Of a DNA stretch of 64,000 nucleotides, positions 33,404 to 61,700 are shown piece by piece (within the stretch, counting starts at the first letter, position 1; each line of letters opens with the position of its first letter). Under the pieces are notes generated by a model. That model was given only the letters and a program-made list of their open reading frames with translations. It had not been told where the DNA came from and made no database searches. This DNA is from Colwellia sp. M166 (GTDB lineage Bacteria; Pseudomonadota; Gammaproteobacteria; Enterobacterales; Alteromonadaceae): positions 310,001 through 374,000 of the forward strand of contig NZ_CP040755.1 of NCBI RefSeq assembly GCF_024585285.1. Reading direction: 5' to 3'. The translations under genes and the position numbers were made by a program.

Positions 33404-33404
33404 T

Positions 33405-33726: not shown

Positions 33727-33728
33727 AA

Positions 33729-35680: not shown

Positions 35681-35705
35681 GATAACTCCTAACTTAATTT
35701 CTTCC

Positions 35706-35723: not shown

Positions 35724-35752
35724 ATTCTAGGCTTTTTATTTGTGACAATCAA

Positions 35753-35768: not shown

Positions 35769-35778
35769 AAGTGATGTT

Positions 35779-36006: not shown

Positions 36007-36091
36007 CAAAGTGTTGTTCTAAATCACTTGTAGTACGAATCAAAATGATACATATTGTATGTATCTGATTATTATTAATGATAAATTTACA

Positions 36092-36961: not shown

Positions 36962-36978
36962 AAATGATGGATTATTAA

Positions 36979-42912: not shown

Positions 42913-42940
42913 TAATAATAACCAGTAAAAAGGATTAAAC

Positions 42941-43945
42941 ATGGCCAAGTTACAAGCACAATTTATGTCGTTTAACGACATTATAAAAATGGGTACCTAT
43001 GAAGAAAATGCAATTCTTAAAGACAAACGCGATCTTCTTATCAATGAGCTGCGCAATTCGTTAACGGACGAAAAAATTCCTGATACAAATAAGTCATTGA
43101 CGTTTTCAAAAATTGATCTTGGCTCATATGCTATGAACACAGGTGTTAAGCCTGCCAGTGGTGACTATGACATAGACGTTGGGATTATTTTTGATATAAC
43201 AAACGATGAATATGATTCAAACAAACTAAAAAAATTGGTGTTCGATAAGCTTAATAAAAACCACAACCGAACCGTTGAGTTCAACAAACCATGTATTACT
43301 GTTAATTATACGAGAGGCTACCATGTGGATTTGGCAATTTATTCTAAAAATAGCGAAAATCATCACATTGCCTGGGGCAAAGAGCACTCAATAGTAAACC
43401 GAAAGTGGTGGATTGCAGATCCCAAAGGATTAAAACAATGGGTTAGTGATGTTGCGACCGAAGCTGAACACAAAAAACAGTTTCGCCGTATTGCACGTTT
43501 CTTGAAAAAATGGAAAGCCAAAGCTTTCAGCGACAATGGCAATAATGCACCACCTTCCATTGGTTTGACCATTCAAGCACGAAAAGCTTTCAGATACCAA
43601 GAAGGTAGTGATTTAGATGTTCTGATTGCTGTAGTTCAAAGTATTAAAAACAGTTTCAATCAGACTTGGGACCTCGATAGTAGCTCACAAAAATCGATTA
43701 TCGACATAGAGTTGCCTGTTCAGCCATACAAAAATGTTTATTATAAAATGACAGAAAATCAGCAAGATACCTTTTATAATCAAGTTGTAAATTTACTTGA
43801 AGCTATAGAAGCTGCTAGAGATGAATCATCTGAGCATGAATGTAGCAAAATTCTACGCAAAGTCTTTGGTAATGACTTCCCTTTAGTCGAAGACAGTAAA
43901 CAAACTCATACTGCACCATATGTCCCCACGGGTACAAGCGCTTGA
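42941..43945 (+). CDS. CD-NTase (CBASS cyclic oligonucleotide synthase)
   Basis: 334 aa cGAS/DncV-like nucleotidyltransferase: GSYAMNTGVKP (61-71) then GDYDIDVGI with catalytic D77 and D79, and third acid D130 in YHVDLAIY. It makes a cyclic di- or trinucleotide alarm signal on phage infection. It is the first gene of a four-gene type II CBASS operon; the SAVED effector downstream suggests a cyclic trinucleotide. AAAAAGGA lies before the ATG. The C-terminal tail ends TSA, available for conjugation by Cap2. It follows the GIY-YIG gene by 28 bp. Confidence 0.92.
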   Translation: MAKLQAQFMSFNDIIKMGTYEENAILKDKRDLLINELRNSLTDEKIPDTNKSLTFSKIDLGSYAMNTGVKPASGDYDIDVGIIFDITNDEYDSNKLKKLVFDKLNKNHNRTVEFNKPCITVNYTRGYHVDLAIYSKNSENHHIAWGKEHSIVNRKWWIADPKGLKQWVSDVATEAEHKKQFRRIARFLKKWKAKAFSDNGNNAPPSIGLTIQARKAFRYQEGSDLDVLIAVVQSIKNSFNQTWDLDSSSQKSIIDIELPVQPYKNVYYKMTENQQDTFYNQVVNLLEAIEAARDESSEHECSKILRKVFGNDFPLVEDSKQTHTAPYVPTGTSA

Positions 43946-45645
43946 ACCAAGTTGAACTTTCAAGGATGATTTCAGAATTGAAATCATCCTATGTTGAATC
44001 TTTTCAGGAAGAAAAAGAACGGCATTTTAATTTTGTTTTAGTCGGAAAAAAACGTAAGTGGGAAGTTGCTATATATTTCCCCGAGAGCTTTCCTTACTGC
44101 CTACCCAAGTCTAAGTTGCTTAATCAAGATCTTATTGGAACACTGGCGCATATCAATCAATTTGGCACTATTTGCATTGAAGAAAGCGATACTGTTTTTG
44201 CTGATTATACGAGAGCACATGACATTATTTGTCAATATATTGAAGATATAGTTAAACTCTTAAACAGGATAAGCCTCAAAATATACCAAGACGAATTACT
44301 AGATGAGTTAGAAGGTTATTACCAACCTAATGATAGTGTTGCTAGTTTTTACCATGCTAAAGATAAAGCTGAAATGGTTTACCTGAGAGTTATTGAAAGA
44401 GAAAAGAAAAAAGGCCCCAAAAATTCTATACCCGTTGTGATGTTTAGTCGTAATAAGGCTTTGCCGTATCAATTTAGTAACGTAAAACAGTTAGGGCAGT
44501 ATCGCGCTACTAAAATATTGCATTTACCTCTAGATAGCGCGGTATTACCTCCAGTAGGAGGCAAAAATTTTAGCTCTCAGTATTTTTCAACTTTGCTTGA
44601 TTATGTAAGTGAACAAAACAAAAAAATATTAAATAAACTCGTTCAGAAATGCCGCTCATTTAATATCTTTTACGTATTACTATCTATGCCGAGAACTAAT
44701 GGTGAAAGAACACAGTTTTTATTGAGGTTTAGCGCTAACCATCATTTACCTCACCCTATTGTCGAACATTCAAACGACTGGCAGATTGAAATGTTTTCAA
44801 TTACGCGGAACTCAAAAGAGTATCTCGTAGAACGTGGAGGCGGTGACATTTTATTGAGTAATAAAAAAGTTGCTGTTGTTGGCTGTGGATCTGTAGGGGG
44901 CCAAGTGGCAAACATGTTAGCTAAAGCTGGTGTAGGGGAATTGGTATTAGTCGACCCCGATATATTAAGTGCCGACAATATATACCGACATCATTTGGGA
45001 GGCCGTGAATTAAATTTTGAAGCTGATAAAAAGACAGGTCGCGTTTATACACGGAGTAAGGTTAACTCATTAGCCCGTCAATTACAGAATGATTTACCAT
45101 ACATAAAAGTTAACACCAAACCTCTCAATTTTGCTGAAGTCATCAATGACAAGGATTTAGTGAATTGCGACGTTATTGTGGTTGCTGTGGGCGCACCGTC
45201 AGTAAACTTACAAATTAACCAAGTGTTAAAAGACAGAAACTTCAATAATGTTGTTTTTTGTTGGAATGAAGCGGCTGGTTTAGGTGGCCATTCCATTGCT
45301 TTAAACCTGCAGGTTAGCTGCTATCAATGCCTTCATACTGATGGCAACCAGTTGAAAGCTGAAAGTGAATTATCGCTTGTTTGTGTAGGGCAGTCTATTT
45401 CTAAAAATCTTACCGGTTGTGCTGGTGTGTTTACTCCATTTTCTTTTTTAGATTCAAGCAGAACCGCTGAGTTGGCCGCAACTCAGACAATCGAAATATT
45501 GCAGTCTTTTACAACTGAGCTAGCAATCAGCTGGAAGGGTAATAACTCAACAAATCTAAAAACAACTGATAGATACGCCACTATGCCATTGAAAGAGCAA
45601 TTGCCTTTAAAACAGCATCATGATTGTAGGGTTTGCAATGACTGA
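43942..45645 (+). CDS. cap2: Cap2: E2-E1 ubiquitin-transfer-like protein of CBASS
   Basis: 567 aa with a TTG start overlapping the CD-NTase stop by 4 bases. N-terminal E2-like domain with the conjugating Cys C78 in GTICIEE; C-terminal ThiF/E1-like domain with the nucleotide loop VVGCGSVGGQVA (~312-323) and LVDPDILSADNIYRHHLGG. Cap2 adenylates and conjugates the CD-NTase C-terminus to primed targets, raising signal output. This E2-E1 fusion defines the long form of type II CBASS. A CxxC pair near the end (CRVCND) may bind zinc. Confidence 0.92.
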   Translation: MNQVELSRMISELKSSYVESFQEEKERHFNFVLVGKKRKWEVAIYFPESFPYCLPKSKLLNQDLIGTLAHINQFGTICIEESDTVFADYTRAHDIICQYIEDIVKLLNRISLKIYQDELLDELEGYYQPNDSVASFYHAKDKAEMVYLRVIEREKKKGPKNSIPVVMFSRNKALPYQFSNVKQLGQYRATKILHLPLDSAVLPPVGGKNFSSQYFSTLLDYVSEQNKKILNKLVQKCRSFNIFYVLLSMPRTNGERTQFLLRFSANHHLPHPIVEHSNDWQIEMFSITRNSKEYLVERGGGDILLSNKKVAVVGCGSVGGQVANMLAKAGVGELVLVDPDILSADNIYRHHLGGRELNFEADKKTGRVYTRSKVNSLARQLQNDLPYIKVNTKPLNFAEVINDKDLVNCDVIVVAVGAPSVNLQINQVLKDRNFNNVVFCWNEAAGLGGHSIALNLQVSCYQCLHTDGNQLKAESELSLVCVGQSISKNLTGCAGVFTPFSFLDSSRTAELAATQTIEILQSFTTELAISWKGNNSTNLKTTDRYATMPLKEQLPLKQHHDCRVCND

Positions 45646-46135
45646 AGAATGGCAAATGGATGTAAAAGGATACGGCTTGATTAGAGTATCAAAAGAACTA
45701 TTGGCAAAATTATGTGATTTTCGGCAATTACCTAAGCAATCACCTGAATCTGGCGGTGTATTAATTGGTAAGCACCTTAATTCAGCGGGTGTATTACTTA
45801 TAGATCAACTTACCCCGCCTCAAAAATCAGATAAGCAGGGGCGCTGTGAATTTTATCGATCTACTGAACACAATAAGTTGGTGAATGATATATGGCAAAA
45901 AAGTAATAAACATTCAACTTATGTAGGGCTTTGGCATAGTCACCCTGAGCCTACTCCAAACTATTCTTTGGTTGATAAACAAGACTGGCAGAACGCACTT
46001 ATTCAATCAAAATACGAAAGCAATAAGTTGTTTTTTGCAATTGTAGGACAAACGCATATTCGGATGTGGATGGGCACAAAACCTACTTTACGAACCCAAA
46101 TATCATTAATTGGAGAATATAAAATTGGAAACTAA
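45638..46135 (+). CDS. cap3: Cap3: JAB/JAMM deconjugating protease of CBASS
   Basis: 165 aa from the ATG at 45638, preceded by AGGG and overlapping the Cap2 stop by 8 bases. Complete JAMM zinc-protease set: E37 in PESGG, then H100-S-H102-P and S110-x2-D113. Cap3 cleaves Cap2-made conjugates of the CD-NTase. It closes the synthase-Cap2-Cap3 core. Confidence 0.92.
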   Translation: MTEEWQMDVKGYGLIRVSKELLAKLCDFRQLPKQSPESGGVLIGKHLNSAGVLLIDQLTPPQKSDKQGRCEFYRSTEHNKLVNDIWQKSNKHSTYVGLWHSHPEPTPNYSLVDKQDWQNALIQSKYESNKLFFAIVGQTHIRMWMGTKPTLRTQISLIGEYKIGN

Positions 46136-47180
46136 TTGGTGGAGCAAAATTAAGTGGTTGATTAGCGTCTATCGCGATTTGAAAAAAAACTCATTACCAA
46201 AAACAATTGCAGGTACAAGGATTATTATCGCAGCTATAGCTAGTCCGGCACTTGGGGTTGCAATAAACTTAATTCTACCTCCAAGCTACTATTTAGGGAG
46301 TATAGAAATAACAAACGGTGGCGTATCATTTTTAACATCAACATTAGGCGTTATGGGATTTTTATTGGGAAGTGGACTCATACTCTTGGATATTAGAGCA
46401 GAACTAAACCAAGCTCGAAAAGTTGCAAGAGTCATAATCTCTGGACTACCTAGTATGCCTACTCATTTCCCCTCGGAAATATTAAGCAAGTCTGAGCAAA
46501 GGCTTGCTAGAGAGCCTATAGAGCTAAGTATTCAAGATGATAATATTGAAAAACAAGTTGAACGCTATAATGCTGAAGTGTGCGTTGACCTGTTCAAAAG
46601 ATTTGTACTTCACCACCAATGTGAAAAACTCTATATAGGTGGTTTAGCTAGAATTCCATTCTTAGTGGCTTACGGTGTATTTCTAAGGAACGTTAGCAAT
46701 ATTACTTATTTCGATAAAATGCACGGCTCCACAAACTGGCGTATTTTAGATAACGAAGATGTCAACATCCAATTGAGTAACACTGAACCACTTCCTAAAG
46801 CAGATGAAAATGGAAATGTGGGTCTAGCCGTTGGTTTATCAACCCCTATACTGCAAGAACAACTTTCTATTGAATTTCAAAACAATACGGCTATCTTAAG
46901 TTCAACGACTCTAGTTGAACGTAATTTAGTACTCAATCAAGAAAATCTGCAAAGATTATCTAGTTCATTGTTGGCAACAATCGATGCATTATCTAGAGAC
47001 CCCAAAGTTAGGAGAATACATCTGTTTCTATCTGTGCAGTCTTCGTTAGCAATTGAAATAGGCCGGAAGTTTCAAGAAGGGATACATAAAACGTGGGTAA
47101 TTCATAACTTCAATGGTAACAAAGGACATTATGAATGGGCTTTAGAACTGTCTGGAAAAGGGGTGAAAATTTATGATTAA
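46125..47180 (+). CDS. Two-transmembrane SAVED effector of CBASS (Cap14-like)
   Basis: 351 aa from a TTG at 46125 (GGAG 9 nt upstream; a TTG at 46110 is an alternative). Two transmembrane helices near residues 31-52 and 68-87 precede a SAVED ligand-binding domain (~150-351), recognised by LFLSVQSSLAIEIGRKF and the final HYEWALEL. Binding of the cyclic nucleotide would assemble the protein and disrupt the inner membrane, killing the infected cell. Last gene of the operon; an IS21 element follows ~40 bp later. Confidence 0.87.
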   Translation: METNWWSKIKWLISVYRDLKKNSLPKTIAGTRIIIAAIASPALGVAINLILPPSYYLGSIEITNGGVSFLTSTLGVMGFLLGSGLILLDIRAELNQARKVARVIISGLPSMPTHFPSEILSKSEQRLAREPIELSIQDDNIEKQVERYNAEVCVDLFKRFVLHHQCEKLYIGGLARIPFLVAYGVFLRNVSNITYFDKMHGSTNWRILDNEDVNIQLSNTEPLPKADENGNVGLAVGLSTPILQEQLSIEFQNNTAILSSTTLVERNLVLNQENLQRLSSSLLATIDALSRDPKVRRIHLFLSVQSSLAIEIGRKFQEGIHKTWVIHNFNGNKGHYEWALELSGKGVKIYD

Positions 47181-47301
47181 AGGCCGTCAAATAAAAACCT
47201 AGCTGGTGGCTCTGTTACTGGTGCGTATTCTCATGACTTTGATCACCGATTCTCATCAGCTTTGATCACTTGATTTATCATTTTGTAGAGCCATTCTTAA
47301 A

Positions 47302-48058
47302 CTAACTTAACTGATCATCATCAGTCAATTTATTTAACTGTTTTCGTATCGATTCTCCTTTTAAATTCACCTTGATTGCACCATGAATAAGCCTGTCTAA
47401 AATAGCATCAGCGTGCGTTGATTCTCCGATCATTTCATGCCAGTTTTCCTGTGGTAACTGACTAATAATGATGTGTGATTTATAACCATACCTCGCATCA
47501 ATTAATTCAAGTAAGTCACTTCTCTGTTGAGCACTGAGTGGCTCAAGCCCCCAATCATCTAAAAATAAGTAAGTCGACTTTAATGAGTTTACTCAGTAAC
47601 TTTCGATAACTGCCATCGGCCTGTGCTAGGAATAGACTTTCAAGTAATTCTTTTAGCCGAATATAAAAAACGCTTTTACCTTGTAGGCAATGTTCATGGC
47701 CTAAGGCACACGCTAGGTATGTTTTGCCACAACCTGTTGCGCCCGTGATTAATATATTCTGATGTAAACTCAGCCAGGTACTTTGGCTGAGACTACGTAT
47801 TTGCGTTTTATCTAGGTTGCGCTTCGGCGAGTAAATGAGTTGGTTTAATTGACCCGGTAACCTGAATTTAGCTTGTCGTACAAGTCGATCGATTTTTCTT
47901 TCATCACGTGTATCAATTTCATGTGTGAGCAATAAACTGATGCGCTCTATAAAGCTTTGCTCTTGATATAGGTTTGGCTGTTCAAGCTGTTGCTTGAGTG
48001 CTTGCTTTATACCCGATAACTTGAGCAGTTGAAGTTGCTGATTAATGGTGTCTATCAT
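47302..48058 (-). pseudogene. istB: IstB helper ATPase of IS21, single frameshift
   Basis: Codons from 48058 read MIDTINQQLQLLKLSGIKQA, then Walker A ITGATGCGKTYLACALGHE. The frame breaks at DLLIF(R), where a run of five T replaces the expected four. In the next frame the rest continues LDDWGLEPLSAQQRSDLLEL... to a TAG at 47302. Restored length is ~252 aa, normal for IstB. The extra T may be a mutation, a sequence error, or a slippery site. Confidence 0.88.
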
Positions 48059-48069
48059 GTTGGTATTCC

Positions 48070-49620
48070 TTAATGGTAGTAATCTGTGCCACGTATGTTG
48101 CTATGTTTGACTGATTTTTCTGGCTCTGTTTGCTGTGTGGGTAAGGGTTGCTGATCTAACCCTTTTTTTAATATCTGTTTAATTGATCTAAGCGTGGTCG
48201 TATTCATACTGATTGCCCGATAACATGCTTGTTCGAGGCGTGGTTTTGAGTAGGTTTTAGCTAAACTCAACACGCCTAAACAGCTGCGGTAAGCTTGCTC
48301 AGGATGGCGTTTTCTATTAAGCAGTAATTCAACAACCTGATGGGTATAATCACCGATACTCAATGCCCATGAGCGTAAGTTTATTGGTGACTGCTCATGC
48401 TGTTTTTGATGCGCCTTTGGCATATGATGTGCCTGTGTTGTATGTCCGCCTAAACGGTTCGACCTTGGATGTTGCGCAATCAAGGTATCGTGATGATAAA
48501 GCTGTACGAGTTGATTGGTGATGTGTGCACGCAATTGTTTCTTAACCCATTGATGTGGCACGCTGTAGTAGTGTTTTTCTATGTCAACATGATAATCAAT
48601 GTGTACACGCACCGTTTTGATTTGTGTGTATTGATAAGGGTTCTCAGGCAATGGTTTTAATGCATTTTTATCGACTAAATCAAATAGCTGCTTGCGTGAT
48701 TGTTGGTATTGCTTCATCACCTTATTGTTCATCACGTCAAGTAACTTTGCTATTTCATGATTTAATTGCGCTAAACTATAAAAGGTTTGGTGACGCAAAC
48801 GCGCCATGATCCAACGCTCTACAATTTGTACACCGACCTCAGCTTTGGATTTATCTTTGGGTTTATAAGGTCTAGCGGGTATGACAGCGACATTAAAGTA
48901 CTCTGCTAGCTGGTGGTATGTCGGGTTTAGGTCAGGCTCGTAGCGACAAGTTTTACTCACCGCACTTCTGAGGTTGTCGGGAATAACAACGTCAGGAACA
49001 CCACCTAAAAACTCAAAGCAACGGGCATGACTCATCACCCAATCTTCAAGTTGTTGACTATAGGTTGCCTCAGCATAGGTATAATTTGATGCGCCTAGTA
49101 CAGCAACAAATACCTGAGCGGTACGTTTTTCCTGTGTCGTAGGGCAAGTGATGGCAATTGTGGGACCACAATAATCGACAAACAGTTTTTCACCGCCTTT
49201 ATGCTGCTGACGCATGGATAGCCGCTGCGTACCTAACCACTGCTTATAAGCACGGCAGAAGTGACTGTAGCTGTAATAAGGCTCGCCCACTTTTTCAAGT
49301 AACTCATCAAACACGAGCTGCAATGTTAAGAGTTTATGTTGTTTTAAATCCTTATTGATACTTAACCAATCAGGCGTTGGGTATCTTTTCTTACGTGTTG
49401 AGAAGCGCCTTAGTTTGGTATTGAGAAACGAATTTTGTTGCTGCTCCTCTGGAATTGGCCATTGATTAAAGCCTAATTCATTCGCCTTTTTAACATAATT
49501 TGCGACGGTGCCAGGCGAAATATTTAAGCTTCTTGCGATCTCTCGATGAGATAACTTTGCTGAGTACTTCAGCCGTAAAATAGAATGTAATTTACTCATA
49601 GATATAGGTTTTGTTGCCAT
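48070..49620 (-). CDS. istA: IS21 transposase IstA
   Basis: 516 aa from the ATG at 49620 (GAGGA 9 nt before; an upstream ATG at 49662 is less likely). N-terminal HTH (YSAKLSHREIARSLNISPGT), then a DDE integrase core: FVDYCGPTIAI, VFVAVLGASNYTYAEA, and DVVIPDNLRSAV with the second Asp and SKAEVGVQIVERW with the Glu. The length is normal. It pairs with the IstB gene 11 bp downstream, which is frameshifted, so the copy may be defective. Confidence 0.9.
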   Translation of the reverse strand: MATKPISMSKLHSILRLKYSAKLSHREIARSLNISPGTVANYVKKANELGFNQWPIPEEQQQNSFLNTKLRRFSTRKKRYPTPDWLSINKDLKQHKLLTLQLVFDELLEKVGEPYYSYSHFCRAYKQWLGTQRLSMRQQHKGGEKLFVDYCGPTIAITCPTTQEKRTAQVFVAVLGASNYTYAEATYSQQLEDWVMSHARCFEFLGGVPDVVIPDNLRSAVSKTCRYEPDLNPTYHQLAEYFNVAVIPARPYKPKDKSKAEVGVQIVERWIMARLRHQTFYSLAQLNHEIAKLLDVMNNKVMKQYQQSRKQLFDLVDKNALKPLPENPYQYTQIKTVRVHIDYHVDIEKHYYSVPHQWVKKQLRAHITNQLVQLYHHDTLIAQHPRSNRLGGHTTQAHHMPKAHQKQHEQSPINLRSWALSIGDYTHQVVELLLNRKRHPEQAYRSCLGVLSLAKTYSKPRLEQACYRAISMNTTTLRSIKQILKKGLDQQPLPTQQTEPEKSVKHSNIRGTDYYH

Positions 49621-49814
49621 TATTGTTATCCTCACCAAACGATTTAGATAACGGTTTAACATACCTACAAAAATTGATAAAACATGAACTCAGTGACGAG
49701 TGGTATTAAGCTTTGATCGGCAAAATCATTAAGAGCACAAAAGTGATCATTTACAAGTGATTTTAGTGATCAAAGCTTAATGAGAATAAGCGATCAAAGT
49801 TAATGCCATTGGGT

Positions 49815-50140
49815 GATCAAAGCTGGAGAGAATATGCAACTGGCATACGTCATGCTGAAATAATTGGATGTACAGGGCAAGCTTTAACTGCTCCAAGAAG
49901 CAAGGTTAAAGAGCTTAGCGACAGGGAAGAAAGCCACAAACCGGGAGTGATACTGTTTATATTGGTGAGGCTGAGCAGGTTTCAAGTCGAGTATATCAGC
50001 ACTTTGGCAAAGGTTTTTGGAATGAAGAGATCTGCTAACGAATAAAAATGAAAATTTAACAAAACACACGTCAAACTCTTAGAATCGAGATTAGTTGTTT
50101 TAACTCATCAAGTAAACAGAGATGAATTGCTTAATAGTAA
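49815..50140 (+). pseudogene. Decayed GIY-YIG (DUF4357-type) nuclease gene
   Basis: Fragments in shifting frames: ATGIRHAEIIGCTGQALTAP, then PRSKVKELSDREESHKPGV in one frame, DTVYIGEAEQVSSRVYQHFG and KGFWNEEIC in the next, and KFNKTHVKLLESRLVVL in a third. In order they match the GIY-YIG proteins that carry DUF4357 (VYIGEAE..., FWNEAI..., NLTKAHVKYLESRL). At least two frameshifts and the missing 5' end show it is dead. The IS21 element abuts its 5' side and may have removed the start. Confidence 0.72.
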
Positions 50141-50229
50141 TCTGCCATTACATTACTGACCTTATCGACAGTACGATTAGGTCAGAACGTATATGCAGAG
50201 GGCCAGCAGAGCTACTACAGTTTAAGTCA

Positions 50230-51402
50230 TCACAATAAGGCTTTTATACCATCAGTTAAACCACTTAACGTTAGGGGATACATTTTATTTTCAACAAGTT
50301 GCGACATAATATTAATTGAAGCATAGTATGGCCATTGCGGTTGCCCTTGAGGGTTTAGCCAAATAACATTATCAAAATGATCTGTTATTCTTTGCATCCA
50401 AACACTACCAGGCTCTTCATTCCAGTGTTCAACACTGCCGCCGGGGTAAGTTATTTCGTATGGCCCCATGGTGGCATCACCAACAAAAATCACTTTATAA
50501 TCTCGACTGTAAGTATGCAGCACTTGCAATAACTCTATTTTTTCACTTTGCCTGCGAGTATTATCTTTCCAAACAGTTTCATAAACACAATTATGAAAAT
50601 AGAAAAATTCAAGATGTTTAAATTCAGCATGCACGGCAGAGAAAATCTGCTCGCAAATTTTGATATGATCATCCATCGAACCACCAACATCGAAAAACAT
50701 TAATACTTTAATCGCATTATGGCGCTCGGGTTTCATTTTGATGTCTAGATAACCTGCATTATTCGCGGTTGCGGCAATCGTATCGTCTAAATCCAATTCT
50801 TCACTAGCACCGGTACGAGCAAACTGTCTAAGCTTACGAAGCGCAACTTTAATATTTCGCGTACCAATTTCAACTTGATTATCCAAATTTCGATATTGAC
50901 GCTTATCCCATACTTTAGCTGCTTTACGATGACGAGAATTGTCTTGGCCTATTCTTATGCCTTCTGGGTTGTAGCCATAAGCACCAAAAGGAGATGTGCC
51001 ACCTGTACCAATCCACTTATTGCCCCCTTGATGACGTTTCTCTTGCTCTTTTAAACGCTCAGCCAATGTTTCCATTAACTTGTCAAAGCCACCCACAGCC
51101 TCTAACTGTGCTTTATCTTCTTCAGTTAACGACTTTTCAAGTTGCTTTCTCAACCAATCCTCAGGGATACCATCTAAATCAAGTTCTAATGATTCTACGC
51201 CTTTAAAATAGTCGGCAAAAGCACGGTCAAACTTGTCAAAATAGCTCTCGTCTTTAACTAAAATAGCTCGGCTAATAACGTAAAAGTCATCAATTTTGGC
51301 GAATACTACCTGCTGCTCTAATGCACGAATTAAATCAAGTAATTCACGCATAGTGCATGGGACTTTATATTCTCGAACTTTACTAAAAAAACCAATTAAC
51401 AT
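50230..51402 (-). CDS. VWA-domain protein, island copy
   Basis: 390 aa, close homolog of the chromosomal VWA protein at 62140. The N-terminal half is helical with a conserved KWIGTGGTSPFGAYGYNPEG linker; the C-terminal VWA domain has the metal site DVGGSMDDH (~243-251) and VFVGDATMGPYEIT. MoxR/VWA pairs act together in protein or cofactor maturation (CoxD/CoxE style). It starts 3 bp after the island MoxR stop. Last gene of the recombinase operon. Confidence 0.87.
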   Translation of the reverse strand: MLIGFFSKVREYKVPCTMRELLDLIRALEQQVVFAKIDDFYVISRAILVKDESYFDKFDRAFADYFKGVESLELDLDGIPEDWLRKQLEKSLTEEDKAQLEAVGGFDKLMETLAERLKEQEKRHQGGNKWIGTGGTSPFGAYGYNPEGIRIGQDNSRHRKAAKVWDKRQYRNLDNQVEIGTRNIKVALRKLRQFARTGASEELDLDDTIAATANNAGYLDIKMKPERHNAIKVLMFFDVGGSMDDHIKICEQIFSAVHAEFKHLEFFYFHNCVYETVWKDNTRRQSEKIELLQVLHTYSRDYKVIFVGDATMGPYEITYPGGSVEHWNEEPGSVWMQRITDHFDNVIWLNPQGQPQWPYYASINIMSQLVENKMYPLTLSGLTDGIKALL

Positions 51403-51405
51403 AAG

Positions 51406-52248
51406 TTATCGACCAGAGCGATTGATAAAGGCTAACTTTTCAAACAAGTGTACGTCTTGTTCGTTTTTCAATAATGCCCCATGTAATGGTGGGATAGACT
51501 TCTCTCTGTCTTTGTTCTGTATAGTTTCAGGTGAAATATCGTCAGCCAAAAGCAACTTGATCCAATCGAGCAGCTCCGATGTAGAAGGTTTCTTTTTCAA
51601 TCCTGGGATATCTCTCAAGTTAAAAAAAGATCCAAGCGCTTGATCGAGTAATGACTTTTTAATATTTGGAAAATGCACATCAACAATTTTCCCCATTTCG
51701 TCAGCATCTGGAAATTGTATATAGTGAAAGAAGCACCTTCTGAGAAAAGCGTCAGGAAGCTCTTTTTCATTGTTGCTTGTGATAATAATGATTGGTCTAT
51801 TTTTAGCCGTTATTAATTGACTTGTTTCATATACGTAAAACTCCATACGATCTAATTCCTGAAGCAAATCATTCGGAAATTCTATATCGGCCTTATCTAT
51901 TTCATCGATCAATAAAACGCAGCGCTTGTCACTTTCAAATGCATGCCAAAGTTTCCCTTTTACAATATAATTAGCAATGTCATGAACTTTATCTTCACCA
52001 AGCTGAGAGTCTCGCAGTCTTGATACAGCATCATAATCGTACAAGCCTTGCTGTGCTTTGGTCGTTGATTTGATATTCCACTGTATTAACTCCAAGCCTA
52101 AGTTATCTGCAATTTCTTCTGCTAACATGGTTTTTCCTGTACCAGGCTCGCCTTTAATCAATAAAGGTTTTTCGAGGGTAATAGCTGCATTAACTGCAAG
52201 CTTAAGCCCATGACTTGTTATATAGTTTTCTGTGCCGTTAAATGACAT
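51406..52248 (-). CDS. MoxR AAA-ATPase, complete island copy of the interrupted gene
   Basis: 280 aa, intact: Walker A GEPGTGKT (~34-41), Walker B LLIDEIDKAD (~113-122), sensor and Arg finger in ITSNNEKELPDAFLRRC (~155-171). By eye it is 65-75% identical to the two halves of the split chromosomal gene, so it is a diverged ortholog, not a recent duplicate. GAGG precedes the ATG, 15 bp after the RecD-like helicase stop, so it is co-transcribed with the recombinase genes. It likely replaces the function lost by insertion. Confidence 0.92.
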   Translation of the reverse strand: MSFNGTENYITSHGLKLAVNAAITLEKPLLIKGEPGTGKTMLAEEIADNLGLELIQWNIKSTTKAQQGLYDYDAVSRLRDSQLGEDKVHDIANYIVKGKLWHAFESDKRCVLLIDEIDKADIEFPNDLLQELDRMEFYVYETSQLITAKNRPIIIITSNNEKELPDAFLRRCFFHYIQFPDADEMGKIVDVHFPNIKKSLLDQALGSFFNLRDIPGLKKKPSTSELLDWIKLLLADDISPETIQNKDREKSIPPLHGALLKNEQDVHLFEKLAFINRSGR

Positions 52249-52263
52249 TCATTACCTCTGTTA

Positions 52264-54519
52264 TTAATTCTTTGGGGTTATGCTATTGGCTTTCAAAAGT
52301 TCTTGCAAGTATGTTTTCCGCTGGCTTGCATTGCTTTGGTTTTTTATAGCGCTAAACAGTTTTTCCTTTGGCCCGACGATATGAATTTCAGTTTCAGCCC
52401 TTGTTATGGCAGTATATAACCATGCGCGATCTAAGTTACTACCTCTAGAGAGCGCAACAATAACACGCGGGAATTGCGAGCCTTGCGCCTTATGTAATGT
52501 GATAGCGTAGCCTGCTTTTAACGAAAGAAGCAGAGCTTGTGTCAAGGGAATGAATTCTTGATTCTCATCTTCAAAATCAGCCATTTTTACCATACCCAGA
52601 TGTCCATCGGTCTGTTCAACGTTAATCAATTTACCAAGAGAACCATTCTGTACACCCGCATCGTAATTATTTTGTGTGAATAATACAGGGTCGTTTTGAT
52701 ATAAATCATCTTGGAAATGTTGCCCATCTATATCAAATACAAGACGTTTACCATCAGGATTCAACTCTCGTTGGCATTGTGTATTAATCTTGTCTACTAA
52801 AGCGTTGGTAGGGGCTACTACGCGACTTTGGGATGGTGATTGCTTGTATAGCTCTACACACGCATCAGCAACGTGATCAAATTCAACATCGTGGAATGTG
52901 ATTGCCCCTGTTGTTAGCGAACTAGGTATCTGCCCTTCATTAATCAATTTTGAATACTCTGGGATCCCCGAACTTGCTCCTTGACGTTTAACAATATCCA
53001 AGTGGGTGTTTCGTATAACACCAGATCCAACAATGTCGGCTAAGATGTTTCCAGCACCAATTGGCGGGAGTTGATTTGGATCTCCAACAAACAGGAGTCT
53101 TATAGATGGATCTATATGTATGATGATTTTAAATATGGTTGATAAATCAACCATTGAGCTTTCATCGATTACAAGTAAAAATTTGTTGTCACCTAAATCG
53201 TCAAGAGGTTCTTCTCTTAAAAATTTGGCGATAGTAGAGCACGGACGCTTAATGCTTTGGCGCATTCTCATGGCTGCTCGACCACTCAATGCGACAGCTT
53301 TAATATTATATCCAAGTTCCTGATAGGAATTTAAAACCGTATTTAGTACCGTTGTCTTGCCGGTTCCAGCCCCTCCTGTGATACAAGAAATAGCATAGCT
53401 CACAGATGTCATTACAGACTCTTTCTGTTGATACTCTAATTCAAAGGGGTTTGCTGAAAAAGCGTTAACACAAGCCGTATTTTCAGCTTCTTCGTATTTT
53501 TCACCTTGAGCATGTAAATTTAAGAAGCGCTTAGCGACAACATTCTCCATTATGAAAGTAGGAGTGAATTGATACTTTCCACTGTCAGGGTAGATGATAA
53601 ATGCGTTTTTATCATAAGCTCCGTTCAGTGCTTGATTGACGAGTTCATCACAATGTAGTAATTCTTTTAAGCGTTTTCTTATGTCCTTATTGCTCGCGAC
53701 AGTATGTCCCTTGGTTGCATGCTTTCTGAGGCATTGAGTAACCGCCGCAACTAAGCGCCTATCATCATTATCATTTACGTTAAAATGTGTTTTAGCAAGC
53801 TTGTCATTGGCTTGAAATGTCATACCAAACAAGCTGAGCGAGTAGGGGTTCTCTTTAATTAATTTTGTAGGATCAGCATCTACTTCAATATCATCAAACT
53901 CTAATGTTCTATTATTACCCCCTTTAAACTTATAAATTCGCTTTTGAATTTGTGATGGAATTCCATGCTCAGTAAAGAACTTTGAGTGTTTCAAGAAAGA
54001 GAATTTTTCATAGCCAGTTATAAGACTGATTGCTGACTCTTTACCAAGGTGATTTACCGTTAATAGTTTAGCTAAGTCTTTATCTTCTAGAACTTTATAA
54101 ACACCTTCACCAAAGGCTTTCCATAGGCGTTCAGCAGTTGAAACACCAACACCTTTGAAGTGAGGCGTATCAGCAATAAATGATTTAAACCCTACAGGGT
54201 TGTTAGATAAAATTAGTTTAGCGGTGATCGCATCAGCATTAATATGATGCTTTTTAATAAAGTAATTACCATCAAAGCTAGCTGCTTCTTCATAGCTTGC
54301 TTCTCCGGTGATTGACCATATTTCACCTTCAGATGGCTCAGGGAATATAGTGTCTGATAGTTTTATTGTGTAGTAATTAATCTTATTGAGTATGGTGTGA
54401 TGTACATTATCAACAGAAACTGCGCTAAAGGCCATTGTTGAATCGTTTTGCTTAAAGCTTGTAAAGACTTTAGTTATACGAACGGTGATATCTGCTTTGT
54501 AAGCTGTTCGCTGGCTCAT
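52264..54519 (-). CDS. RecD2-like SF1 DNA helicase
   Basis: 751 aa. N-terminal OB/HhH-like region (PHFKGVGVSTAERLWKAFGE, ~138-157), then the SF1 core: Walker A ITGGAGTGKTT, Walker B LLVIDESSMVD, motif III LLFVGDPNQLPPIGAGN, and the C-terminal UvrD-like TLHKAQGSQFPRV and YTAITRAE. The layout is RecD2/TraA-like: 5'-3' DNA unwinding. It lies between the small coiled-coil gene and moxR in the recombinase operon, overlapping the former by 4 bases, so a role in island replication, excision or transfer is plausible. Confidence 0.85.
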   Translation of the reverse strand: MSQRTAYKADITVRITKVFTSFKQNDSTMAFSAVSVDNVHHTILNKINYYTIKLSDTIFPEPSEGEIWSITGEASYEEAASFDGNYFIKKHHINADAITAKLILSNNPVGFKSFIADTPHFKGVGVSTAERLWKAFGEGVYKVLEDKDLAKLLTVNHLGKESAISLITGYEKFSFLKHSKFFTEHGIPSQIQKRIYKFKGGNNRTLEFDDIEVDADPTKLIKENPYSLSLFGMTFQANDKLAKTHFNVNDNDDRRLVAAVTQCLRKHATKGHTVASNKDIRKRLKELLHCDELVNQALNGAYDKNAFIIYPDSGKYQFTPTFIMENVVAKRFLNLHAQGEKYEEAENTACVNAFSANPFELEYQQKESVMTSVSYAISCITGGAGTGKTTVLNTVLNSYQELGYNIKAVALSGRAAMRMRQSIKRPCSTIAKFLREEPLDDLGDNKFLLVIDESSMVDLSTIFKIIIHIDPSIRLLFVGDPNQLPPIGAGNILADIVGSGVIRNTHLDIVKRQGASSGIPEYSKLINEGQIPSSLTTGAITFHDVEFDHVADACVELYKQSPSQSRVVAPTNALVDKINTQCQRELNPDGKRLVFDIDGQHFQDDLYQNDPVLFTQNNYDAGVQNGSLGKLINVEQTDGHLGMVKMADFEDENQEFIPLTQALLLSLKAGYAITLHKAQGSQFPRVIVALSRGSNLDRAWLYTAITRAETEIHIVGPKEKLFSAIKNQSNASQRKTYLQELLKANSITPKN

Positions 54520-54941
54520 AGTTTTGATAGTTCCTCGTAAACTTCAGCAAATTCACTTAAACGGCCTTTGTTGGCTCTGAGAACCTTATTTTCAGCCTCT
54601 AACTCAACAATGCGCTGTTCAAGGTCAGGTACGCGAGATTGCTCTCTAGCAGCCTTTAACGACTCTCTTTGCAGTGTTTTAGGTGCTCGTTCTTCTTTTT
54701 CGCCTTTTGTTGTTAAGGCTGGCAATACCAATCGCTCTCTGAGTCCATCCTCAAGCTTTTTTAAATCATCTTTAATTGTTTGGTTGGAGCCTAGTACAGA
54801 CTTGGCAAAGCCACATTGTTCAGCAATGTTTTTTCGATTTAATTTACCCCTAAAAATGATATCAACATAATCCTGATCGGACATAGAATCTCTCCATGTC
54901 TCAAACAACTTAACGCTATTATCTCCAGATACTGAGGACAT
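54516..54941 (-). CDS. Small coiled-coil protein of the recombinase operon
   Basis: 141 aa from the ATG at 54941, chosen for GAGGA 5 nt upstream and a 1-nt gap from the previous stop. Residues ~20-60 may be an HTH (LNRKNIAEQCGFAKSVLGSN); the C-terminal part (~95-135, VPDLEQRIVELEAENKVLRA) is a leucine-zipper-like coiled coil. This layout is seen in integrase-associated accessory proteins. Function unknown, perhaps a DNA-bending or directionality factor (inference). Confidence 0.65.
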   Translation of the reverse strand: MSSVSGDNSVKLFETWRDSMSDQDYVDIIFRGKLNRKNIAEQCGFAKSVLGSNQTIKDDLKKLEDGLRERLVLPALTTKGEKEERAPKTLQRESLKAAREQSRVPDLEQRIVELEAENKVLRANKGRLSEFAEVYEELSKL

Positions 54942-54942
54942 G

Positions 54943-55587
54943 CTAATCCTCCTCGGGTATGAATGAAAGCTTATTGATAGCGTCAATGAAAAAAGGCTTA
55001 GTTACAGGTTTACCTTTAACGTCTACTATTCGCCCATGTTCTCCTAGTTTCCAGCCCAAATCCTTTAACTTGTTCTCTGATATGAAACTAGTAAGAGCGT
55101 TGACTTCTCCTGAAGTAAGCTTGTTTTCAAGCGCTACAAAATCTTCTTGAGGTGTATTTTTGCGATGATCTAATTCAATCAATCCTTTGCTTTTTTGCAG
55201 ATTTAGTTCATTTTGTAACTTTCTGTTTGTAGAAATCAAATCAAGAACCATAAGTCGTGTAACGGTGTCTTCAATGCAATTAGCAAGACGAAGAGGCTCT
55301 GAATTTCTTGCTTTCTTTGGTACAGGTTTGGAGTAGCGAGCTCTGTAAACCATTACGAGGCTTTGATACAGAGGGCTTAACTTACTTTTATTTTTGATAG
55401 TCGATTCTGCGGGACCACCCATTTCTTTCGATATTTTCCCGATTACCCCAAAACTGAAATCAGTTGACTTACCTGTTACTTGGCTTTCGCAGGCTTTCTT
55501 TAATATTTTTAGCTTAGCCTTAACTGAATCTGACGATCCTTCAATTAAGCCTTGGTATATCTCTTCAATTACGTCAGTCATTTTCAC
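54943..55587 (-). CDS. gmtX: GmtX-like third protein of the gamma-mobile-trio
   Basis: 214 aa, soluble. It starts on GTG overlapping the GmtZ stop by 4 bases; an ATG 6 bases on is an alternative. It has no known enzymatic motif. Segments include FSFGVIGKISKEMGGPAEST (~45-64), an HTH-like stretch, and KPFFIDAINKLSFIPEED at the end. I name it from its position directly after the GmtY/GmtZ pair and from recalled family size (~210 aa). Confidence 0.7.
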   Translation of the reverse strand: MKMTDVIEEIYQGLIEGSSDSVKAKLKILKKACESQVTGKSTDFSFGVIGKISKEMGGPAESTIKNKSKLSPLYQSLVMVYRARYSKPVPKKARNSEPLRLANCIEDTVTRLMVLDLISTNRKLQNELNLQKSKGLIELDHRKNTPQEDFVALENKLTSGEVNALTSFISENKLKDLGWKLGEHGRIVDVKGKPVTKPFFIDAINKLSFIPEED

Positions 55588-58500
55588 ACCACTTTAAGTT
55601 TTGATTCTTCATTCGAAAGAATATTATTTTTTAGAGATTTACCTTCAAGCAGAAGTGTTAATCCTTGTTGAGTTTCATCATCATCAAAGCCTAATTCTTT
55701 CAGAGTTATTTTTTCATCTTTATCCATCAACGTACTAACTTTATCCCAGCTACCTGTTCGGGCAAAGATAAACTTTGTTAGTTCATTACCGACTTCTAAT
55801 TGCTGACGTTCATCAAGCATAAACATACCTGGAGATAAGCCGTTTTTTCGTGCAAACAGGTCTAGAAATTGAGTTCGAGCAATGTTTGCGTTTTTTGGAT
55901 GTGAAGATTGATAATATGAAGCTGAATGGCAGACCATATCCAATTGTATAAAGTCTGATGTTTCAGATAATTGGAATTCAACCTCACCTTGATTAGTAGC
56001 AACAAGGCTTAGGCTACTATTTTCATCATCACCATTTATTTTTCTGTTTAGAAGTTGAACAGAATTCATTGAAAGTCTGATAATGCTAACTAGGTCGCAT
56101 GTAAGCGCATCAAACCTTGTAACCTCTTGCTCATAGTGTGATTCAGCAAGTGATAGCTCATATTGCTTTAAAAAGGGTTTTCCTTTCTTTATTGCTTGAT
56201 ATTCTTCATCTTCCATTATCTCAATTTCATTTCTTAACGATTCAACCTGAATCGATCCCGCCTTGCATTCCAGTGATATTTCATTTGCAATCATCTGCAA
56301 TCCACCTAAAAATGCTGGGCCTGTAACAAAGTGACGACATTGAATGCAATTACTAGTCCCAAGGTATCCAGGCGAGGCTGGTGCGTATAAATTCCTATCC
56401 TTATCTAGTGGTTTCCCACCGCTATTACATAACGTTCGACCATTAGGGCAAATCCCATAATCCATAAAGCTAAATGCTGCGGCAGGTATCTCCCAATTAT
56501 TCTTAACCAACTCTCCGTCGGAGCCAATAAGTTCAGACTTCGCTTGTTCCATTTTTTTTTGTTTAATAAGCTGTTCAACACGCTTAACTTGGTTTTTAAT
56601 GATTCGGTTATCAGCGTTTTGCAATTGTTCTTGGATATCGACTGCTGAAACTTTCGTGTAATAAATAGTCATAACCAACGAAGAGTGACCTACAAGTTTT
56701 TGAACTATTTCAGGTGATATCTGTGCATCCCGAACAAAAGCAGTAATCAGTGATACGCGCATGGAGTGCAGGGTGAAATGTGCTTTGAAGGAGGTTAATC
56801 TATTCGATTTTAATCCTTTACTCAAATAAGCTAAGGGCAGTTCTTCATCTTGAATTAAATATAAAAGACCGCAAAAAGCTGCACTAAGTTTGGCTTGGGT
56901 TAAAGGGCGAATCCCCCCTTTAGTTGGGTCTCTAAACAAAAAACAAGACCGTGAATTATAACCATACTTCTTTAATTGGTACTCTGAAGCTTTTCCGCTA
57001 CTTTTATATTCGTTAGTCCATTTAGTTGGTTTTACTAACGGGTTGTATTTTGTCTGCCAATCTCTGAGCATTATTATCCAAGGAACAATCCTTTCATCTA
57101 CCCAAGGCACATCGTAGCCAATATATGCGTTCTTAGCTGTTTTGTTTGTGTTTACATGACAACTTACGCCGATTGTATTGTTTTTATCAATAAGTGTTAG
57201 TGATTCAGTTGGCTTTAGAAAACCTTGCCAATTTTTTTCAGGTACTCGATGTTCATCTAATAGTAAATTTTCTTCCCATTGATGTTTGCCGTCTTTTGTT
57301 GTTAGTATGTGTGAGTCAGCCTCTCCACTGTCTAACCAACATGTTTGACTACCGCGAAACGGCATAAAAAGCTGGGTATATAAAGCAATTAAACGTACTG
57401 GAGACCACATTTGGAATTGTCCCTTAGAATACCTCCAAACACAATTAGGATCATTTTTATCAATAACACTTTCATCCACATGAAACCACTCAGAGAAATA
57501 GGAATACATTTCAGTTTTAGTATCAATTGAATCAAACAATTCTCTAATATTGGTTACTTTAGAGTCAGCAGGCACAATGTATTTTCTGGCGCGGTCGATG
57601 TAGCGAAAGGGGAGCGCTGGCTTCCTCGACTCACTCAACCGTGGATTTCCATCTAATTCAACCTGAATATCTTTCTGTTTAATTGGATTTGAATAGCCCT
57701 CTAAATAGGTGACCTCTCCCGTTTCTTCGCAGGTATGAGCGCAACATTCTGTAAGCACAAAATCAAAGAACTCATTCACAGCATTGACTGCGGCCATAGT
57801 CTTACTAGACGCTGACAGTGCATTTAACCAAGCATTAATGTCTGGTTTGCTATCATAGTTAATGTCACAGTATTTTGCGGGAGAAGATGGCATGTTGTTG
57901 ATATTAAACAAAAAGTAATTTCTTAAGGTTTGTATTTTGTTACCTATTCTTTTTAACGAACTAACCCACTTGTTTGCCATATCGTGCCACTCTGCCAAAT
58001 CTTCGTTGTCAAGCATATCGAAGTCGGTAGAATAAGTGATATTTGAAAATGAAGAAAATCCGACGATTTGTTCTTTGTTGATGGCAAGGTAAGGGGTGGT
58101 TGTAGTAGCTTTTCGGTATTGATTGTTAGTAGTGATTTTATTTTCATGACAAAAGTTACGCACTTGGTCAACGTGCCAAAGCTTATCTTTGTTAAACGCA
58201 AGAAACTCTTCAAATGAATAAAAGCCGTATGTGTTTTCTGGGCTCTCAGGTAGTGCACGATACAGCTTCCTTGCCGATTCATAGCTTTTTTTATCAAAAA
58301 CAGATTGGTCTTTGATTAACGCTATAGCATCTAATGGGTCTTTATATTCTATACCTACAAAGCTAGCCCAGTCATAATATTCAGGCCAATGTTTTTTTGA
58401 TGGTTGGTTTGGGAATCTACGATCCTTTTTTATAAGTCCAACGTAGTCTGAAATAGTACGGACTTTCACATCAGCAGAATCAATATATCGTACGGTTTCT

Positions 58501-60119
58501 ATGTAGGAAGCATTTTTACTTAAAAATAAATCCCAATTTATCCAACCTAGCTCTGCATATTTCACTTCGGGAACTGAAGGTAATTTAGGGTCTTCTTTGT
58601 AACGTCTTCCGTACTCGATTCCACTACTAATATTAAGCGCAAGGGCAGCATCTGACGCTTCTTGAAGGGTTTCATAATGCTCCTTTTTTTCTTTACCTAA
58701 AAAAGCTCTCCAGCCTTCCCAACCTTGATCTTTATATTTGGTATCGGGATATGCAGGTAATTTAGGGTCTTCTTTGTAACGTCTTCCGTACTCGATTCCA
58801 CTACTAATATTAAGCGCAAGGGCAGCATCTGACGCTTCTTGAAGGGTTTCATAATGCTCCTTTTTTTCTTTACCTAAAAAAGCTCTCCAGCCTTCCCAAC
58901 CTTGATCTTTATATTTGGTATCGGGATATGCAGGTAATTTAGGGTCTTCTTTGTAACGTCTTCCGTACTCGATTCCACTACTAATATTAAGCGCAAGGGC
59001 GGCATCTGACGCCTCTTGAAGGGTTTCATAAAAATTAGTTTTTTCCTTACCTAAAAACGTATCGAAGCTTTCCCAACCTAGGGCGGCATATTTTTTATCG
59101 GGAGTTGCAGGTAATTTAGGGTCTTCTTTGTAACGTCTTTTGTACTCGGAAGGACTACTAATATTAAGCGCAATGGTGGCATCTGACGCTTCAGAGAGGG
59201 TTTCATAAAGACTCTTTTTTTCTTTACCTAAAAAAACATCAAAGCCTTCCCAACCTAGAACCTTATATTTTTCATCCGGAGATGAAGGTAATTTAGGGTC
59301 TTCTTTGTAGCGTTTTTGGTACTCGGCTTGCCCTCTAATGTAAAGTGTAATGGCGGCATCTGACGCTTCTTGAAGGGTTTCATAATACTCCTTTATTTCC
59401 TTACCTAGAAAAAGATTCCAATTATCCCAGCCTAGATTTTCATATGTTCTATGAGGGTTTGAAGGTAATTTAGGGTCTTCTTTGTAACGTCTTCGGTACT
59501 CGGTTCCACTACTAATATTAAGTGCAATGGCGGAATCTGACGCTTCTTGATGGGTTACATAATGATCCTTTTTTTCTTTACCTAAAAAAACATCAAAGCC
59601 TTCCCAGCCTTGGTCAGAATATTTCTTATCAGGGTTTGAAGGTAATTTAGGGTCTTCTTTGTAGCGCCTTTCGTACTCACCACTGTTACTAATATTAAGC
59701 GCAATGGCGGCATCTGACGCCTCTTGAAGGGTTTCATAAAAATCCTTTTTTTCTTTACCTAAAAAAACAGCAAAGCCTTCCCAGCCTAGATCCTTATATT
59801 TTGATTCGGGAGTTGAAGTTAATTTAGGGTCTTCTTTGTAGCGTTCTTTGTACTCATTTTTACCAATAATATTTAGTGCAATGGCGGCATCTGACGCCTC
59901 TTGATGGGTTTCATAAAGATTCTTTTTTTCTTTACCTAAAAAAGCATCCCAGCCTTCCCACCCTAGGTCTTTATATTTTACATCCGGATCTGAAGGTAGC
60001 TTTGAGTCTTCTTTGTAGCGTTTTTTGTACATTCTCTTCCCTGTAACGTTAAGCGCAATGGCGGCATCTGACGCTTCTTGAAGAGTTTCATATTGGTGAG
60101 ATTTCTTAGACATCTTCAT
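55584..60119 (-). CDS. gmtZ: GmtZ-like giant integrase with nine N-terminal repeats
   Basis: 1511 aa. Residues 10-540 are nine tandem 59-aa repeats of the phage-integrase repeat type (core RYKEDPKLP...GWEGWxxFLGK). Then comes a core-binding-like region (~600-850) and a tyrosine-recombinase catalytic domain: Arg in PFRGSQTCW (~940), HxxR in LHSMRVSL (~1118) and GHSSLVMTIYYTK, which has the His and the likely nucleophilic Tyr. A late Cys cluster (CPNGRTLC...CIQCRHF, ~1230-1270) looks like a zinc finger. The repeats probably bind DNA. It overlaps gmtY by 14 bases. Confidence 0.85.
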   Translation of the reverse strand: MKMSKKSHQYETLQEASDAAIALNVTGKRMYKKRYKEDSKLPSDPDVKYKDLGWEGWDAFLGKEKKNLYETHQEASDAAIALNIIGKNEYKERYKEDPKLTSTPESKYKDLGWEGFAVFLGKEKKDFYETLQEASDAAIALNISNSGEYERRYKEDPKLPSNPDKKYSDQGWEGFDVFLGKEKKDHYVTHQEASDSAIALNISSGTEYRRRYKEDPKLPSNPHRTYENLGWDNWNLFLGKEIKEYYETLQEASDAAITLYIRGQAEYQKRYKEDPKLPSSPDEKYKVLGWEGFDVFLGKEKKSLYETLSEASDATIALNISSPSEYKRRYKEDPKLPATPDKKYAALGWESFDTFLGKEKTNFYETLQEASDAALALNISSGIEYGRRYKEDPKLPAYPDTKYKDQGWEGWRAFLGKEKKEHYETLQEASDAALALNISSGIEYGRRYKEDPKLPAYPDTKYKDQGWEGWRAFLGKEKKEHYETLQEASDAALALNISSGIEYGRRYKEDPKLPSVPEVKYAELGWINWDLFLSKNASYIETVRYIDSADVKVRTISDYVGLIKKDRRFPNQPSKKHWPEYYDWASFVGIEYKDPLDAIALIKDQSVFDKKSYESARKLYRALPESPENTYGFYSFEEFLAFNKDKLWHVDQVRNFCHENKITTNNQYRKATTTTPYLAINKEQIVGFSSFSNITYSTDFDMLDNEDLAEWHDMANKWVSSLKRIGNKIQTLRNYFLFNINNMPSSPAKYCDINYDSKPDINAWLNALSASSKTMAAVNAVNEFFDFVLTECCAHTCEETGEVTYLEGYSNPIKQKDIQVELDGNPRLSESRKPALPFRYIDRARKYIVPADSKVTNIRELFDSIDTKTEMYSYFSEWFHVDESVIDKNDPNCVWRYSKGQFQMWSPVRLIALYTQLFMPFRGSQTCWLDSGEADSHILTTKDGKHQWEENLLLDEHRVPEKNWQGFLKPTESLTLIDKNNTIGVSCHVNTNKTAKNAYIGYDVPWVDERIVPWIIMLRDWQTKYNPLVKPTKWTNEYKSSGKASEYQLKKYGYNSRSCFLFRDPTKGGIRPLTQAKLSAAFCGLLYLIQDEELPLAYLSKGLKSNRLTSFKAHFTLHSMRVSLITAFVRDAQISPEIVQKLVGHSSLVMTIYYTKVSAVDIQEQLQNADNRIIKNQVKRVEQLIKQKKMEQAKSELIGSDGELVKNNWEIPAAAFSFMDYGICPNGRTLCNSGGKPLDKDRNLYAPASPGYLGTSNCIQCRHFVTGPAFLGGLQMIANEISLECKAGSIQVESLRNEIEIMEDEEYQAIKKGKPFLKQYELSLAESHYEQEVTRFDALTCDLVSIIRLSMNSVQLLNRKINGDDENSSLSLVATNQGEVEFQLSETSDFIQLDMVCHSASYYQSSHPKNANIARTQFLDLFARKNGLSPGMFMLDERQQLEVGNELTKFIFARTGSWDKVSTLMDKDEKITLKELGFDDDETQQGLTLLLEGKSLKNNILSNEESKLKVV
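58500..60092 (-). repeat. Nine tandem 177-bp coding repeats in gmtZ
   Basis: In-frame repeats of 59 codons. Repeats 7 (58854-59030) and 8 (58677-58853) encode identical protein and are almost identical DNA, and most of repeat 9 matches them too. The other six have diverged, so the last repeats were copied recently. Confidence 0.9.
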
Positions 60120-61539: not shown

Positions 61540-61639
61540 TTGGTTGATTTTAATGAATTGGTATTATTGGTACATGTTACACCCTAATACGTAATAAATA
61601 AAGGGCAAAAGTTTACAGAAAGAAAGGTTTCAGTTCGAT

Positions 61640-61700
61640 TAATACAAACAATTAGGTTGTTTTGGTACACCTAAGTACCCCCTAATACCTTGATAAGATG
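61640..61700 (+). other. Right island junction (attR) and terminal repeat
   Basis: GGTACACCTAAGTACC (61665-61680) and ACCCCCTA (61677-61684) end the island, then CTTGATAAG (61689 on) restores moxR. On the opposite strand this reads TAGGGGGT with a GGT...ACC palindrome, mirroring the left end. Codons Asp-Lys-Met-Glu then match the moxR frame. Confidence 0.7.

Follow-up and report, generated by a model that had tools for sequence, protein, structure and literature searches.

The host genome, a single contig of 4.84 Mb, contains the 64,000-nt stretch of DNA analysed here as a whole (the window), in which a chromosomal moxR gene is interrupted in frame, between codons 130 and 131, by a large island. 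When the flanks are joined, an uninterrupted 277-aa MoxR is obtained, with LLQE directly before the junction and LDKMEF directly behind it. By eye, the insertion site lies behind Walker B. The features of the insertion are the following.

24370..24759, + strand: 5' part of the chromosomal moxR, 130 codons (joined flanks in frame)
24760..61688, no strand: the GMT island in moxR, 36.9 kb (bounds set by the in-frame flanks)
24760..24793, no strand: left terminus of the island, forming an imperfect inverted repeat with the right terminus, core TAGGGGGT (direct reading)
61655..61688, no strand: right end of the island, imperfect inverted repeat, core ACCCCCTA (direct reading)
61689..62132, + strand: 3' part of the chromosomal moxR, 147 codons plus stop (joined flanks in frame)
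62140..63312, + strand: chromosomal VWA gene, uninterrupted, separated from the 5' part of moxR (PF05762, 40.1 bits)

The initial annotation of this DNA described a split chromosomal pair, which is correct for moxR and not for the VWA gene, whose reading frame continues without a break. A single, uninterrupted moxR was found in 14 other genomes of the genus (n = 17 genomes), and two had no match at the threshold used.

Inward from the right end, 149 bp from which gmtY lies, the island carries a row of seven genes on one strand, followed further in by defence cargo.

60106..61539, - strand: gmtY, tyrosine recombinase (NF040693, 432.4 bits, cut-off 340)
55584..60119, - strand: gmtZ, large integrase with integrase repeats (NF047926, 627.1 bits, cut-off 600; INT_rpt, 8 stretches)
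54943..55587, - strand: gmtX (NF040692, 138.3 bits, cut-off 40)
54516..54986, - strand: VPA1267-family gene (NF040697, 139.1 bits, cut-off 90)
52264..54519, - strand: RecD2-like helicase (TIGR01448, 352.2 bits, below the cut-off of 500; Pfam HHH_RecD2)
51406..52248, - strand: island moxR, complete, a 280-aa MoxR-like ATPase and the replacement candidate (AAA_5, 47.5 bits, cut-off 22)
50230..51402, - strand: island VWA gene (CoxE-like), 390 aa, partner gene (PF05762, VWA_CoxE, 30.2 bits, cut-off 26.4)
42941..47180, + strand: cargo, CBASS operon with cyclase, E1-E2, JAB and 2TM effector, SAVED-like matches (PADLOC, 353.5, 710.1, 220.4 and 402.6 bits)
36979..39717, + strand: cargo, MmeI-like type IIG restriction-modification (PADLOC, 1019.5 bits)

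With GmtY, GmtZ and GmtX all above their NCBIfam cut-offs and adjacent in the order Y-Z-X at the edge, the element is a Gamma-Mobile-Trio (GMT) island, and it is presumably mobile. The gaps along the row are -14, -4, -44, -4, 15 and 3 bp, so that the full moxR-VWA pair ends the recombinase operon 15 bp after the RecD-like gene, as had been annotated initially. From this operon-like spacing, the pair is predicted to be co-transcribed with the integrase genes. AAA_5 and VWA_CoxE domains in adjacent genes identify it as a MoxR AAA ATPase/VWA pair, and the match to the MadB family ATPases reached 110 bits with a cut-off of 475 (NF047784). An IS21-like istA/istB pair, recognized by eye, adjoins the VWA gene (47555-49662); its istB reading frame of 167 aa is apparently cut short. 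Near the left end of the island lies a reading frame of the group II intron reverse transcriptase type (25438-26469, 343 aa, GTG start, perhaps truncated).

A complete foreign moxR-VWA pair is thus present in an island that splits moxR. Residues 3-145 of the island MoxR match the left part of the broken gene (window 24373-24801) at 72% identity, and the right part (61689-62123) is matched at 70%. Over 277 codons, the joined flanks and the island moxR share 72.6% of amino acids and 67.1% of nucleotides, and for the two VWA genes the values are 60.0% and 64.8% (390 codons). The range of 65-75% first estimated by eye therefore holds for the DNA of both genes and for MoxR, the VWA protein being somewhat lower. 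Between the pairs, dN is 0.23 for moxR and 0.31 for the VWA gene, and synonymous change is saturated or nearly saturated. Such low dN against saturated synonymous sites would be expected under purifying selection, with no particular branch indicated.

A tree of 58 MoxR rows places the joined chromosomal flanks within the genus clade (15 rows, 100/100), where they are 99% identical to the nearest member, and the island MoxR outside that clade. This position, together with the single uninterrupted moxR in the 14 genus genomes, rules out a local duplication and bears out the earlier view that the pair came from elsewhere; judged by the tree, it is a foreign copy. Among the best 120 of 8000 scored proteins, the nearest relatives of the island MoxR are 19 mostly unnamed proteins (P0003-P0021) at 88-96% identity, probably of metagenomic origin with sources such as jgi, ena, lgn and tara, and named alteromonad MoxR proteins come next, at 79-82%. 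One further protein, P0002, is 100% identical and has no stated source. Seventeen of the 19 share a weakly supported clade with the island MoxR (88/85). The source may have been a chromosomal gene or an element-borne lineage, as both are compatible with these 19 relatives. Sequence scans of viral contigs returned one GmtY relative and no MoxR relative.

The pair could also be a by-product of capture, in which the element took neighbouring genes from the moxR locus of an earlier host without selection. Its chromosomal gene order and the chromosomal type of the named alteromonad relatives would suit such an origin, but the pair stands after recD and not at an end, its reading frames are open, and in the related islands described below greB copies of different origins occupy the same slot after gmtX. 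We regard a mere by-product as very unlikely.

The initial annotation proposed that an island which breaks a useful gene brings a working replacement, and that islands in other genes would carry the matching gene. For a survey of this pattern, 127 distinct GmtY-bearing loci were collected, with membership decided by GmtY: that of the window, 34 loci from the 395 family genomes (31 of 33 above-cut-off matches and 3 below), the best 80 of 179 relatives from the public genome set, and 14 loci from genomes of the order (394) and the class (369), admitted at E values of 1e-30 or lower against the GmtY of the window. The duplicates L141 (= L043) and L194 (= L129) were removed. At each locus, the genes just outside gmtY were compared with the genes within the island. 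Reading extended inward for at most 10-13.5 kb and for at least 8 kb in 90 of the 127 loci; L005, on a 3.7-kb contig, was read to 2.9 kb. The GmtY tree left out L072, L129 and L194 (frame from the match start below 300 aa) as well as L090 and L141 (identical proteins). In addition, 147 plasmid records hold GmtY relatives, all below 60% identity.

No GmtY-bearing locus outside moxR contained a moxR-VWA pair within the 10-13.5 kb at most that were read inward (127 loci), in agreement with the initial expectation that islands elsewhere lack it. At each locus with greB, radical-SAM, moxR or VWA genes inside, the copy corresponds to the target gene. These results bear on whether the pair is hitch-hiking cargo, carried for a function of its own (e.g., in stress or defence), with the match to the target a coincidence. 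Such cargo would fit the wide occurrence and versatility of MoxR-VWA pairs, the abundance of defence genes in the island and the absence of the pair from the only other moxR island found. Nevertheless, neither moxR nor VWA was seen inside any other locus of the set over the length that was read, and the chance-cargo view fails to explain why greB, radical-SAM, moxR and VWA genes lie inside only those islands that break that very gene. Coincidence is therefore an unlikely explanation.

Other outside-inside matches of the survey were of a different kind: those of L103 and L139 proved to be unrelated gene families (by eye, permease-like in L103 and sensor-like in L139) and were rejected, and those of L114, L138 and L193 are short or distant. 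Broken genes seen by eye also include ligA, an Lrp-like regulator (L083) and a cupin-type protein (L093, L096); the integrases of the Lrp-like and cupin-type islands fall in the same clade as those of other gene-breakers. Other GMT islands apparently lie, by eye, behind uninterrupted genes, among them recA, prs, rimO and glmS. Five of them (L085, L091, L099, L102, L117) from Acinetobacter, Pseudoalteromonas and a Wohlfahrtiimonas MAG, are found by eye about 245-278 bp past the glmS end; the region behind glmS is the one used by Tn7. A RecD-like frame stands directly upstream of gmtY, not after gmtX, in L068, L069, L072, L074, L075, L077, L078 and L080, and likewise in L104, L106, L118, L120, L126 and L132; these frames were named by eye from one sequence of the group, and those in L072 and L074 are short pieces.

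The most extensive parallel is provided by greB, which is split at codon 48 in 22 distinct genomes, each with one foreign greB in the island (G889, which equals G398, was dropped from the count). The break lies right behind the catalytic loop, to which D41 and E44 belong in E. coli GreB. Each of the 22 genomes yielded, in whole-genome searches, one greB copy together with an N- and a C-terminal piece of the gene, any other greB matches being distant (about 27-38% identity). The copy is full-length in 21 of the 22. The exception, G359, has a copy that matches residues 1-134, the remainder being in another frame; with this frameshift near the 3' end, the genome seems to be without any whole greB. 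The gmtY gene of the same genome (L057) is in two pieces, separated by approximately 0.5-1 kb of other sequence; the broken gmtY and frameshifted greB fit a decaying island.

The copy lies between both greB pieces on one contig in 15 of the 22 genomes; in the remaining seven it lies on the side of one piece that faces the island. In the layout set of 18 loci, 15 of them greB islands, it follows gmtX directly in 12 of these 15, with a gap of -4 to 29 bp; in L047 it stands 435 bp after gmtX, in L043 further off and inverted, and in L121 outside the stretch read. G396, G399, G400 and G404 have the copy at a distance of 85-98 bp from the N-terminal piece and G403 at about 8 kb, in all of them near the end opposite gmtY; in G400, gmtY is on another contig than the copy. 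In G395 (L119) and G397 (L123), the copy stands between gmtX and the greB N-terminal piece, and the gmtY found does not adjoin the C-terminal piece, so these two are possibly stacked islands. Where reading reached at least 8 kb inward (90 loci), greB was present inside 15 of the 19 greB-target loci vs none of the 71 others, and in the four remaining greB-target loci the copy lies further in.

A quick tree unites those greB-island GmtY proteins that entered it in one clade of 21 rows, inside which L134 and L138, of other or unknown target, also fall; the L138 locus shows neither a greB piece nor a greB copy. The greB islands are therefore not independent cases, as they share a common integrase ancestor. 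Their GreB copies, on the other hand, are polyphyletic: well-supported branches force at least four changes of copy/target label, and a single clade of copies is rejected (p-AU 2.2e-43), which rules out one greB capture followed by plain descent. The Pseudomonas copies of G396, G399, G403 and G404 group with chromosomal GreB of other Pseudomonas and those of G395 and G397 elsewhere, and the copies of three Acinetobacter islands group with an Acinetobacter target. One clade of integrases with polyphyletic copies indicates one choice of target and several origins of the copy. Allele swapping in one ancestral greB slot is a possible route; since the tree has 111 columns and some long branches, the number of capture or swap events is uncertain.

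The break site within the copies bears on a role in transposition, in which the copy, as a decoy or an additional target-like site, would direct integration or protect from it, as was suggested for tgl of Tn552-II. That transposon has an att copy within its target-like gene in the portion of the report available (PMC12486829), and several alteromonad islands have a copy that departs from the target immediately behind the break (KENK vs QYNK or IYGK). However, in G395 and G397 the copy has the QYNKK of the target, in G753 both have KENKR, and in G359 the swap is reversed. Across these motifs no site is consistently altered or kept, and self-protection through an altered site in the greB copy is rejected on this ground. 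It seems highly improbable that the copy serves transposition.

Outside greB, the matching gene was seldom found, and the earlier expectation holds there only in part. In 16 genomes the break falls, by eye, directly behind the cysteine motif of a radical-SAM gene. A full copy occurs in two of them, G501 and G484, which belong to one genus; there it lies beyond the break on the island side, outside the trio row. No copy was found in the other 14 genomes searched, 13 of which are of unknown completeness; in one of the 14, the MAG G418, no C-terminal piece was found either. Neither of two radC islands nor the one island in a slipin-like gene had a copy, with these targets named by eye and the N-terminal piece searched. 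Likewise, the idea that islands in moxR carry moxR-VWA is realized in one of two cases, the island in the window. The second, G162, belongs to another genus; its moxR is split at the same place, its integrase is the nearest relative of that of the window (52% identity), and its genome (99% complete, about 70 contigs) contains no intact moxR. Replacement is thus not general: radical-SAM, radC and G162 contradict a strict rule by which every island that breaks a gene also supplies a spare. We infer that a spare is kept where loss of the target is costly.

Taken together, these observations make it quite probable that the pair at 50230-52248 is a replacement module for the moxR broken by the GMT island. 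The GMT integrase of this lineage would recombine into a conserved stretch of moxR and break the gene, and the island would supply a foreign, complete moxR with its operon partner VWA, last in the gmtY-led row, whereby the host would regain a working moxR-VWA. The element contains a foreign version of its target at full length here, for moxR, and in 21 of the 22 greB relatives. The island copy is predicted to be functional. Selection against the cost of the broken gene would retain it, and its divergence (about 65-67% nucleotide identity here) may limit homologous recombination with the target, which could delete the island. Overall, the initial interpretation as a replacement is partly supported: it was right in direction, and the greB pattern is stronger than could be known at that time.

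A broader proposal can be put forward only tentatively. Behind the trio, GMT islands may maintain a "rescue slot" into which foreign alleles of the broken gene are recruited repeatedly, while the integrase would aim at the DNA for the most conserved part of a protein and so gain a wide host range. The spare would pay the cost and tie the host to the island, because island loss without precise excision would lose the gene. The sites in question lie after the catalytic loop in greB, after the cysteine motif in the radical-SAM gene and after Walker B in moxR.

In this way, separate cases (recA, bcp, a YolD-like gene) become a countable pattern, in which a single integrase clade and a single target codon go with several gene sources and a replacement in 22 of 22 genomes. 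This pattern suggests how integrases use conserved coding DNA as attachment sites at a tolerable cost to the host. It also lets one ask which targets need a spare (here greB always, radical-SAM seldom, radC not seen), and it represents a route by which housekeeping genes are swapped for foreign versions across genera.

The initial annotation knew of no earlier description for this family. For GMT islands this stands, as no report of target replacement was found in the literature searched, which did not include the founding paper (10.1038/s41564-024-01840-5) and its possible discussion of insertion sites; the principle itself is not new among mobile elements, since RME/recA, Tn6283/bcp and Tn552-II/tgl precede. 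The GMT islands of Mahata et al. (2024) share with the present one gmtY-gmtZ-gmtX at one edge, defence cargo and a VPA1267-family gene beside the trio, whereas a target-matched replacement gene behind the trio goes unmentioned in the passages that cite that work. Two identical GMT islands occur at different places in one isolate in the available text of PMC12039261, which indicates that site choice is not strict in all lineages.

The recA mobile element (RME) of V. cholerae S24 and V. parahaemolyticus 090-96, in the available parts of its descriptions, splits a conserved gene at a fixed site, has short inverted repeats and carries a full divergent recA (PMC4405046; PMC4334540); recA-RME was functional in E. 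coli (PMC4405046). Unlike the present island, in which both target and copy are moxR, RME has recA as its target and a divergent recA inside, in S24 at the end away from the integrase, and is not called GMT in the portion of PMC4405046 available. An island with a second recA also appears in the accessible part of PMC7820670, and a thymidylate-synthase case in C. difficile is cited in that of PMC4405046.

Tn6283, a strand-biased circularizing integrative element, has two tyrosine recombinases and bcp as its insertion site; the thiol peroxidase it carries is 54.8% identical to Bcp and, as the authors speculate, may compensate for bcp. In contrast to the GMT islands, it is an IntA/IntB element and a single case in the excerpts of that report (PMC5991714). 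A term search of a later survey of Tn6283-type elements gave no match for "target gene" or "compensat" (PMC10214605). In Tn552-II of S. aureus, a target-gene-like gene, tgl, lies behind tnpABC and is proposed to rescue the broken target; the element differs in being Tn554-related, with beta-lactamase cargo and a YolD-like target, in the part of the report at hand (PMC12486829). The replacement principle is thus already known from RME/recA, Tn6283/bcp and Tn552-II/tgl, and the GMT case is an addition to it.
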